Assembly: GCF_001488575.1 (NCBI RefSeq)
Contig: NZ_LN831302.1
Span: forward strand, 1,426,001 to 1,490,000
Direction of reading: 5' to 3'
Length of the DNA: 64,000 nt
Origin: Halobacterium hubeiense
Lineage (GTDB): Archaea > Halobacteriota > Halobacteria > Halobacteriales > Halobacteriaceae
Shown here: piece by piece, positions 5,412-51,410 of the stretch
Layout: every line of letters starts with the position of its first letter
Numbering within the stretch: the stretch's first letter is position 1
Made by a program: the position numbers and the translations under genes
The notes under the pieces: generated by a model
Database searches by the model: none
What the model saw: only the letters and a program-made list of their open reading frames with translations
What the model was told of the DNA's origin: nothing

Positions 5412-5678
5412 CTACCGATTCTCGCGCTGTTCGACCTTGTTCAGTTCGATGAGTAGCCGGAAGATGGCCTTCACGAGGTTCGGGTCCACGTCGAAGGCCT
5501 CCGCGTTCTGGCCGGCGCGGTCCATCACCGCCTGCTCTTGGCCCTCGTCGGTCGTCGCCATCCCGCGCTCGTCTTTGACCTCCGCGATGGTCTCGGCGAC
5601 GTACGTGCGCCGCGCGATGAGGTCGACGATTTCGCGGTCGATGGACTCGATTTCCTCGCGCAGTTCCTCCAAGCTCAT
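5412..5678 (-). CDS. Chorismate mutase (AroQ class)
   Basis: Converts chorismate to prephenate on the route to Phe and Tyr. The 88-residue product is the usual length for a free-standing AroQ domain, all helical, with the motif LREEIESIDREIVDLIARRTYVAETIAEVK (helix 1 with the active-site Arg and Lys) and a conserved C-terminal helix LVKAIFRLLIELNKVEQ. ATG 5678 is chosen because it overlaps the shikimate kinase stop as ATGA, giving translational coupling; an in-frame ATG at 5741 would lie deep inside the upstream gene. The pair forms an aromatic-amino-acid operon. Confidence 0.93.
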   Translation of the reverse strand: MSLEELREEIESIDREIVDLIARRTYVAETIAEVKDERGMATTDEGQEQAVMDRAGQNAEAFDVDPNLVKAIFRLLIELNKVEQRENR

Positions 5679-6529
5679 GTCGTCCGGGCCCCGTCCAGCT
5701 GCGTCGTCGTCAGCCGGACTGTCCCCGGGTTCTCGTCCCATAGTGATTTCACCTCCTGTAGTGCGTCTTCCTCGCCGACCGCGACGTAGCTCGGGCCGGT
5801 ACCCGAGAGGGACGCCCCGTCGGCGTGCGGGAGGGCGTCCACGATTGGCTCGGTCGGGTGGCCGAGCGCCGCTGCGAACGCCAGCCCGTTGACCGTCATC
5901 GCGGTGCCGTACTCGCCGTCGGCCGCGAGGTCGGCGACGTGGTCGGCCATCGGCGCGACCCGCTGGCAGCGCTCGACGTCCGCGTCCGCGGAGAACGACT
6001 GCTCGGGCGGCGTCCACACGAGCGCCGCCCACTCGACTTCGTCGCGGAACAGCAGGTCGTCCTCGCGGTTGTCCGTCATCGTGAGCCCGCCGAGCATGCT
6101 CGCCGACGCGTCGTCGAACGCGCCCGTGACGGTGACGCCCACCTCGCGAGCGGCCTCGACGCCGAGACGCGCCGCGTCCTCGCGGGCGACCGACTCGGCT
6201 TCGCCGAGCGCGTCCAGCGTCGCCAGCACGGTCGCGTTCGCGGCCGCGCTCGAACTCTTCAGGCCGGACGCCAGCGGCACCTCGCTGTCCGTGTGGACGG
6301 TGCCGCCCTCGCCGTGCCCGTACTCGTCGGTCACCAGCGACACGCACCGCTCCACGAGCGCGGTGTCGGCGTCCGGGTGGTCGGCGACGCTGCCGGTGAC
6401 GCCGTCGGCAGCCGCGTCCAGCGACACCTCCGCTGTCACGTCGAAGTCGAGCGCGAACGCCGACCCGATGCCCGTCGCGAGCGCGTTCAACACAGTGCCC
6501 GCGGCTGGCGCTGCTGCACGGCCGTCCAT
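5675..6529 (-). CDS. aroK: Archaeal shikimate kinase (GHMP family)
   Basis: Phosphorylates shikimate with ATP. It is the archaeal, non-orthologous GHMP-superfamily form rather than the bacterial P-loop kinase. The GHMP ATP-binding motif is visible as PLASGLKSSSAAANA (about residues 85-99), and the C-terminal glycine-rich motif is ASLSGTGPSYVAVG. Length (284 residues) matches the archaeal family. Start 6529 lies about 26 bases after a TATA-like element (GTAAATACC on the minus strand) and gives the family-like N-terminus MDGRAAAPAAGTVLNALATG. It is followed by chorismate mutase in an overlapping operon. Confidence 0.95.
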   Translation of the reverse strand: MDGRAAAPAAGTVLNALATGIGSAFALDFDVTAEVSLDAAADGVTGSVADHPDADTALVERCVSLVTDEYGHGEGGTVHTDSEVPLASGLKSSSAAANATVLATLDALGEAESVAREDAARLGVEAAREVGVTVTGAFDDASASMLGGLTMTDNREDDLLFRDEVEWAALVWTPPEQSFSADADVERCQRVAPMADHVADLAADGEYGTAMTVNGLAFAAALGHPTEPIVDALPHADGASLSGTGPSYVAVGEEDALQEVKSLWDENPGTVRLTTTQLDGARTT

Positions 6530-6581
6530 GTGTTGACCTGCCACGGCCGGTATTTACGACTGGCGCTTCGGGCAAGGAGAG

Positions 6582-6789
6582 CGTGGGCGAGCGAAGCGAG
6601 CCCACGTTATGGCGAGCGGCGACCGAAGGGAGCCGCGAGCAGCGTGGCCGAACGTAGTGAGGCCACGTTACGGCGAACGGCGAGCACCGCGAGCCGCGAG
6701 CAGCGTGCTCGACCAACGGGAGAGCACGTCGAAGCGAACGCGGAGCGTAGCGATGCGTGAGCAGCGTGCCCGAGCGAAGCGAGGCCACG
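6582..6789. repeat. Array of seven covarying hairpins, 61-base period
   Basis: The 301-base gap between aroK and the next gene is filled by seven inverted repeats: 6582-6606, 6616-6636, 6643-6667, 6678-6696, 6704-6728, 6738-6758 and 6765-6789. Each has a stem of 4-7 pairs around an 11-base apex that begins GA and ends GA. Apex centres alternate 32 and 29 bases apart, so two hairpins make a 61-base unit. Odd members share CGTG...CACG outer stems with different inner pairs; even members have shorter GC stems. Stem changes are compensated on the other arm, and apex positions 3 and 9 covary as well. No coding function is seen. It is not a CRISPR array: there are no identical repeats separated by unique spacers. 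Confidence 0.85.
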
Positions 6790-6830
6790 CAAACGGCGGG
6801 CTTTTCCACGCCCACCCGCAAGCCACAGCT

Positions 6831-7268
6831 ATGAGCGCCCGCAACGACATCGCGCCGAGCACGCTCGGCGTCGAACTCGAAGAGGAGGGCGTCTACGTCG
6901 AGTACACGGACGGCCGCCGCACGTTCTACAACGGCGTCCCGGAGAAGGTCCACGGGACGGTGCGGTGCCGGCCGGGCAAGGACGTCCACGTCCTCGTCAC
7001 GGACCCGACGGAGACGGAGGGCGTCCTGGTCTACGTGAACGACCGCAAGACCCACGACGAGATTCTCGAATCGACGGGCGTCGGCCGCGTCCTGCTCGAC
7101 CCCGGCGAGGAAGAGGAGCTGTTCCCGGGCGTGACCGTGCGCGCGGACGGCTACGCGACGGAGGTCGAAGCCGACCCCGAGGAGGCCCGGGGTCGCGTGT
7201 TCGTCTTCGAGGAGGACGAACTCGGCGAGCGCTCGTTCGAGCTGTTCGCACCGGAGTCGGAGGAGTAG
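6831..7268 (+). CDS. DUF5796-type haloarchaeal protein
   Basis: A 145-residue acidic protein of unknown function, conserved across haloarchaea (probably the DUF5796 family). Recognisable stretches are GVYVEYTDGRRTFYNGVPEK, CRPGKDVHVLVTDPTETEGV, VYVNDRKTHDEILESTGVG and GEEEELFPGVTVRADGY, suggesting a beta-rich domain. The start is ATG 6831, 27 bases after a TATA-like box (GCTTTTCCAC). The frame is open further upstream through the hairpin array, but that part has no protein-like character. No catalytic residues can be named. Confidence 0.85.
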   Translation: MSARNDIAPSTLGVELEEEGVYVEYTDGRRTFYNGVPEKVHGTVRCRPGKDVHVLVTDPTETEGVLVYVNDRKTHDEILESTGVGRVLLDPGEEEELFPGVTVRADGYATEVEADPEEARGRVFVFEEDELGERSFELFAPESEE

Positions 7269-51349: not shown

Positions 51350-51410
51350 CTGCGGGCGCGTACGCTCACTCGCTGCTCACGGCTCGCTACGCTCGCCGTT
51401 CGCATATCCC
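51350..51410. repeat. Second, degenerate copy of the GA-hairpin repeat
   Basis: In the 249-base gap behind mat, the minus strand repeats the array pattern of 6582-6789. Stem ACGGC/GCCGT (51379-51383 and 51395-51399) encloses the apex GAGCGTAGCGA (minus strand), identical to the sixth apex of the array. Next to it is the same 10-base linker GTGAGCAGCG (51371-51380), then a decayed second hairpin. It shows the unit is dispersed in the genome. Confidence 0.65.

Follow-up and report, generated by a model that had tools for sequence, protein, structure and literature searches.

A haloarchaeal family of dispersed hairpins that keep a tandem GA/GA step and triloop while their stem sequences change

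The intergenic array at 6580–6789 of the window, the whole 64,000-nucleotide stretch of the Halobacterium hubeiense genome analysed here, belongs to a family of hairpins with a specific shape: a stem, a C-G pair, a tandem G-A/A-G mismatch, two pairs and a triloop, which is GNA in 77%. Across copies the stems differ on both arms, and the shape stays the same. The copies lie dispersed through intergenic DNA of the main chromosome and occur throughout the order; the array at this locus varies in number, type and orientation among sister species and is absent in some; and within this clade it is common for the end hairpin to abut a core promoter at a conserved position. We consider it probable, from sequence comparison, that the family is a chromosome-dispersed short palindromic DNA repeat of haloarchaea, similar to bacterial REP/BIME elements, whose GA-bearing strand would fold when single-stranded or in a cruciform. 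The family appears to be undescribed: the hairpins have no match in Rfam, permissive thresholds included, and an earlier description was not found in the open-access papers searched (one elsewhere is possible).

The array alternates hairpins of two types, A and B, between two divergent genes, and one solitary copy lies elsewhere in the window:

5678–6544, minus strand: GHMP-kinase gene of the archaeal shikimate-kinase-like kind, probably starting at the ATG at 6529 (PF00288, E=3e-15)
6546–6558, minus strand: TAAATA on the minus strand, probably the TATA element for the GHMP kinase gene, from direct reading of the sequence
6580–6789, no strand: 61-bp tandem unit, hairpins in the order A-B-A-B-A-B-A with 32 nt from A to B and 29 nt from B to A (TRF period 61, 3.4 copies)
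6582–6606, plus strand: hairpin 1, type A, CGTGGGC.GA.GC[GAA]GC.GA.GCCCACG (match to covariance model R1, 34.2 bits)
6612–6640, plus strand: hairpin 2, type B, with second GA/GA (outer GA/GA rule), GC.GA.GCGGC.GA.CC[GAA]GG.GA.GCCGC.GA.GC (R1 match 6614–6638, 33.8 bits)
6643–6667, plus strand: hairpin 3, type A, CGTGGCC.GA.AC[GTA]GT.GA.GGCCACG (R1 match, 31.2 bits)
6673–6701, plus strand: hairpin 4, type B, GC.GA.ACGGC.GA.GC[ACC]GC.GA.GCCGC.GA.GC, one A-C mismatch, non-GNA loop (R1 match 6675–6699, 23.2 bits)
6704–6728, plus strand: hairpin 5, type A, CGTGCTC.GA.CC[AAC]GG.GA.GAGCACG (R1 match, 27 bits)
6734–6762, plus strand: hairpin 6, type B, GC.GA.ACGCG.GA.GC[GTA]GC.GA.TGCGT.GA.GC, G-T beside the GA step (R1 match 6736–6760, 22.2 bits)
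6765–6789, plus strand: hairpin 7, type A, CGTGCCC.GA.GC[GAA]GC.GA.GGCCACG, one C-C mismatch (R1 match, 22.7 bits)
6799–6808, plus strand: CTTTT, about 27 nt upstream of the DUF5796 ATG, a probable TATA-like element of that gene, from direct reading of the sequence
6831–7268, plus strand: DUF5796 gene, 3′ of the array (PF19109, E=3e-70)
51377–51401, minus strand: solitary type B hairpin of the array's family (R1 match, 34.1 bits, E=1.8e-7)

Sequence reading, TRF and the covariance model all agree with the original prediction of seven hairpins with apices alternately 32 and 29 bases apart. The model, built from 45 units that include hairpins 1, 2, 3 and 5 of the array, recovers 7 of 7, all on the plus strand, at spacings of 32, 29, 32, 29, 32 and 29. 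The positions x and x′ flanking the inner C-G pair covary as had been described (G/C, C/G, A/T, G/C, C/G, G/C, G/C), and apexes 1 and 7 contain GCGAAGC exactly, again as had been read. Type A has the form CGTGnnC.GA.xC[NNN]Gx′.GA.GnnCACG and type B the form GC.GA.RCGGC.GA.xC[NNN]Gx′.GA.GCCGY.GA.GC, in which another tandem GA/GA lies five pairs below the first; this step and the GC/GC beyond it, outside the five-pair stems of hairpins 2, 4 and 6, had been overlooked. One stem position is imperfect in each of hairpins 4 (A-C), 6 (G-T) and 7 (C-C), and 2 of the 7 triloops (ACC and AAC) are not GNA.

The DUF5796 gene has orthologues in 13 of 13 genomes of the genus Halobacterium. On the other side, a chorismate mutase gene (PF01817) adjoins the GHMP kinase gene, which, from this neighbour and general knowledge, we take to be probably an archaeal shikimate kinase gene. 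The TATA-like elements of both flanking genes probably lie at about −27, outside the array, which thus separates two divergent core promoters. Leaderless mRNAs are common in haloarchaea, and if those of the flanking genes are leaderless the array is in neither mRNA.

Several lines of evidence support a specific shape. First, it is more frequent than expected at random. In the window, 6 GA/GA hairpins have a stem of at least 5 pairs, against a mean of 0.12 (maximum 1) in 60 order-2 Markov simulations, and the array segment holds 5 with a stem of at least 4, against a mean of 0.0015 in 2,000 shuffles. The array also folds better than its shuffles, both as RNA (z = −4.8) and as DNA (z = −2.3). 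In 800 kb of the same genome, a census admitting any 2×2 internal loop, on a stem of at least five pairs and below two inner pairs and a triloop, found GA/GA to be the sole mismatch enriched without a GA-favouring filter. Among intergenic hairpins of the family geometry there, GA/GA accounts for 35 and the next class, CG/CG, which is itself paired and is counted on both strands, for 10. When loop lengths of 3–5 and 1–9 inner pairs were scanned, only two pairs plus a triloop was enriched, with 90 GA/GA against 6 AG/AG; an apparent second hairpin class, with a five-base loop or an inner length of 13, was set aside, as it arose from the way loops were defined or, probably, from coding periodicity. 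The copies are not placed at random inside coding genes without pairing, the arrangement that the original prediction had named as speaking against it: 81% of strict GA/GA hairpins in the 800 kb are intergenic, compared with 17% of the DNA.

Second, pairing is seen where it was not selected for. Stem covariation in the set chosen for pairing is partly present by construction, and the unbiased evidence consists of the x-pair count and the pairing test on GANCNNNGNGA sites only. Intergenic GANCNNNGNGA sites, taken with pairing not required, fall into two groups, and x is paired in 35 of the 36 with all five stem pairs; coding GANCNNNGNGA sites and eight control motifs pair mostly at about 0.2–0.4 per position, with no such split. 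In 56 hairpins picked without regard to x, x and x′ form a Watson-Crick pair in 52 (C-G 22, G-C 18, A-T 12, other 4), and x is never T. A second GA/GA follows 21 of 28 five-pair stems, usually with a C-G pair after it. The 169 distinct matches of the model, which favours GA/GA, carry GA/GA in 166, a C-G closing pair in 165 and a GNA loop in 130, and 51 of their 845 stem cells are non-Watson-Crick (G-T 17, A-C 14).

Stems that are nearly always perfect would also be expected of a mutational by-product, in which intrastrand template switching perfects quasi-palindromes and yields paired arms without selection; such correction does give exact paired changes on both arms. It would, however, erase the GA/GA step, which is kept in those 166 of 169 copies (found by a model that favours it) and is the only mismatch enriched in the filter-free census, and we regard this origin as very improbable.

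Third, stems are compensated at orthologous loci, where the position of the end hairpin is kept at promoters and stem letters change on both arms with pairing kept. At one orthologous promoter our genome has CGTGGCC/GGCCACG and genome G012 has CGTGGGC/GCCCACG; at another, ours has CGTGGGC/GCCCACG versus CGTGGCC/GGCCACG, and at a third, CGTGCCC/GGGCACG versus CGTGGCC/GGCCACG. At the window locus the variable stem letters are GGG in our genome, GGC in G011 and GCT in G009. Such changes probably arise by exchange between members of the family. The unbiased pairing test, the mismatch specificity and these compensated stems together strongly support the earlier proposal that selection keeps a folded structure and not a sequence.

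The array itself is variable. Its site between the GHMP kinase and DUF5796 genes is readable in 11 of 13 Halobacterium genomes (all but loci L044 and L052). There is no hairpin at L046, L047, L048, L049, L051 or L053, one at L043, two intact plus a third on the opposite strand at L042, an expanded mixed array at L045 and an A-B-A array in inverted orientation at L050. No consistent target duplication, such as MITEs often show, marks the window locus, where GCAA is possible, and the few readable insertion polymorphisms involve mostly larger composite elements. The solitary window hairpin at 51377–51401 is missing from the orthologous region of G009.

Fourth, the family is dispersed. All 104 model matches in our genome lie on the 2.51 Mb contig (the main chromosome), with none on the 0.62 Mb outside it, where about 21 would be expected if they were evenly spread. 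Elsewhere, 2 of the matches listed in G009 lie outside the main contig, and none in G004. Within Halobacterium the copy number ranges from 5 (H. salinarum, G006) to 120, with 49–81 hairpins in G002, G004, G007 and G012; since H. salinarum has so few, whatever the hairpins do is dispensable there. Run against haloarchaeal genomes, as had been suggested, the covariance model finds copies in 26 of the 31 sampled genera of the order, and in other orders of the phylum scattered single weak matches at about noise level. This genome- and order-wide dispersal, together with the empty sites, bears out the suggestion of a nonautonomous repetitive element.

Hairpins of the family's form were also seen in viral contigs of 36–40% GC (L289, L297, L308, L316 and L330). 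Of the type B matches in all viral contigs, 23 of 23 retain a paired x; a generic test based on a single fixed stem showed no x-pair excess overall there (0.30 for GA versus 0.33 for AG), and its paired GA cases favour GNA loops. To go by these sequences, the shape may exist outside haloarchaea, in other lineages.

Gene context was read over stretches covering about 1.4 Mb of our genome with a home-made gene caller. Its 63 clusters lie between tandem genes (27), divergent genes (17) or convergent genes (11), or inside predicted genes (8). Hairpins within an array are nearly always on the same strand, and along the chromosome strands are random (runs test on the full set, P=0.71), which led us to reject replication polarity of the KOPS or Chi type. 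In a subset of clusters the end hairpin, mostly type A and mostly antisense, is centred 45–62 bp before the start codon and lies directly against the core promoter. Of 24 near start-facing edges, about 11 fall 51–57 bp from the start codon (about 53 bp), mostly antisense, in a distance window picked after inspection of the data. The peak recurs in G012, partly at orthologous genes, and is absent in 40 loci from other species, so that a general promoter-distance rule was dropped in favour of a type A feature of the clade. A local effect of the arrays on promoters is plausible from these positions. Upstream regions at four of our clusters (G000:C1 518302, 1498508, 1899946 and 2322081) carry plain triloop palindromes without GA steps (for example, CGTGGCGCGCCGGCGGCGCGCCACG) at the promoter-abutting spot; at 518302 and 1899946 the plain palindrome stands where G012 has a GA hairpin.

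These positions also bear on whether the hairpins are a resident chromosomal site for a structure-reading protein (a nucleoid protein, topoisomerase, recombinase or regulator), with arrays recruited to promoters, as with the protein-binding BIMEs of bacteria. Restriction to the chromosome in our genome, with the distributions in G009 and G004 given above, the position kept at orthologous promoters despite changed stem letters, and the clustering of start-facing edges would fit such a site. Indeed, conserved positions and a lack of plasmid copies are more easily reconciled with a resident functional element than with a mobile repeat. The lack of replication polarity, a copy number of 5 to 120 within one genus and an array locus that is empty in several sister species count against it, and we judge a protein site unlikely as the explanation of the family.

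Because the opposite strand carries TC/TC and the GA step is present on only one strand, the meaningful form would be single-stranded or cruciform DNA, or RNA. If it were RNA, the hairpins would serve transcripts as terminators or processing signals, or constitute a small RNA, and selection would be on RNA pairing. The RNA folding of the array, far better than that of shuffles, is in line with this, as are Haloferax hairpins upstream of 3′ ends with one hairpin terminator (PMC7237163), and clusters between convergent genes are mildly over-represented (11 of 55 intergenic clusters versus about 8–10% of intergenic space). Sense-strand bias is, however, absent (9 sense and 18 antisense among clusters between tandem genes in our genome), and many copies lie upstream of start codons or between divergent promoters, outside any leaderless mRNA. 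There is no excess of RNA-type wobble, G-U over A-C, among the 169 distinct matches (G-T 17 versus A-C 14), and the loop is a GNA triloop on two pairs, not a GNRA or UNCG tetraloop. The RNA counterpart of the GNA mini-hairpin is far less stable. No T-run follows the array hairpins on direct reading of the sequence, a U-tract is thus missing, and an intrinsic terminator was rejected for the lack of T-runs after the window hairpins and for the 17 of 63 clusters between divergent genes. With Rfam also empty, we favour the DNA form; the structured RNA that the original prediction had listed as an option is thereby disfavoured, and an RNA element seems to us improbable.

As a DNA repeat, the family can be set beside known systems. 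Bacterial REP/BIME elements with RAYT (Y1) transposases are short imperfect palindromes with more than 100 copies per genome, mostly intergenic and in composite, regularly spaced arrays (PMC2817692). The haloarchaeal family resembles them in being short palindromes in 104 copies, largely intergenic (the 81% of strict GA/GA hairpins) and in regularly spaced arrays, but in the units inspected it lacks the GTAG-type foot of REPs, stem and foot both varying; its hairpins keep one orientation per array whereas REPs alternate; and its stems vary in sequence, the core mismatch and loop being the conserved part. An association with Y1/RAYT was rejected, as PF01797 has 0 matches in G002, G004, G007 and G012, with their 49–81 hairpins, and 2 in H. 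salinarum, with its 5. One with TnpB was also rejected, 12 of 20 TnpB genes lying outside the main chromosome, where hairpins are absent. Haloquadratum has transposase-free short repeats of two kinds, PATEs and SMRs, which bear palindromes or inverted ends. The near-terminal palindromes of PATEs are also found in IS605-type transposons, and SMRs, of 80–110 bp with inverted ends, mostly target PATEs or IS605 and are absent from the large plasmid PL100 (PMC3119063). Our family is likewise transposase-free, short, haloarchaeal and, in our genome, absent outside the main chromosome. Its distribution does not match that of TnpB or Y1, and it is set beside PATEs by distribution, not by termini; unlike SMRs, it consists of independent 25–29-nt units, 1 to 7 per locus, with a common structure and not a common sequence. 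DNA mini-hairpins of the d(GCGAAGC)/GNA kind are extraordinarily stable (Hirao 1994 and Yoshizawa 1997, as cited in PMC6479982 and PMC10527192). The family apex GC[GNA]GC is exactly such a mini-hairpin; those that these citing papers describe are model oligonucleotides, whereas here the motif caps a tandem GA/GA on a longer stem in a genomic repeat. The tandem G-A pairs, presumably sheared, recall kink-turns and box C/D motifs, but the defining three-nucleotide bulge is absent and the stems run unbroken into the GA step, and a kink-turn was rejected.

For the dispersed DNA repeat that we favour, the following course can be proposed. The GA steps would form sheared G-A pairs, and the GA strand would fold into its hairpin when single-stranded or in a cruciform, with replication or negative supercoiling as the occasion. 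Arrays would grow and shrink in A-B (61-bp) steps through slippage or recombination, and new copies would spread by a mechanism other than Y1/RAYT, perhaps inside larger palindromic elements. Most speculatively, promoter-proximal copies may be retained because a cruciform or hairpin insulates or tunes the neighbouring promoter. We conclude that the shape itself is kept; what retains it may be the spreading of the repeat, or else an effect at promoters that is topological or exerted by a protein. A further reading, rather unlikely in our view, is a DNA-structure code, in which GNA mini-hairpins capping tandem sheared GA steps would serve the order as a signal specific to the chromosome, read by shape and not by sequence and set against core promoters, insulating or tuning transcription; the shape might then recur in non-haloarchaeal lineages.

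Known prokaryotic palindromic repeats are defined by sequence, and the conserved object in this family is a non-canonical DNA shape. The GNA hairpin has so far been mainly a chemist's model; here a family keeps it over an archaeal order while the stem letters are replaced. The family offers a route to ask whether DNA folds into hairpins or cruciforms inside cells whose internal salt is molar, and whether these act on promoters. It also accounts for the ‘GAGCGAAGCGAG’ filler that recurs between genes and may be misread as coding.

Larger elements accompany the hairpins in places. Quasi-palindromic elements of about 250–300 bp with a four-way-junction layout occur at L146:18100–18480, L024:19420–19800, L151:14900–15400 and in G009 near C1:1518690; each consists of outer arms CCTCGAAAGCCCC/GGGGCTTTCGAGG, a CCTTTCAGTCCGCCC...GGGCGGATTGAAAGG palindrome at the centre and a pair of variable side arms, often with GA hairpins, and the one tested had no Rfam match. 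The hairpins may be carried by such elements. Two related ones, of 277 and 297 bp and with GA hairpins, in the G009 regions C1:1402881 and 1620131 (L181 and L192), are cleanly absent in our own species (G000), the former having GGCGACG on both flanks. Inside a gene at L192:18656 (G009), a 48-bp in-frame difference from G000 comprises two hairpins, one of GA type, which the orthologue lacks. At G000:C1:1354999 and 1382675–1382981 (L140 and L141), GA hairpins are mixed with duplicated fragments resembling tRNA 3′ ends, perhaps as integration scars, and in G009 they are repeated in tandem.
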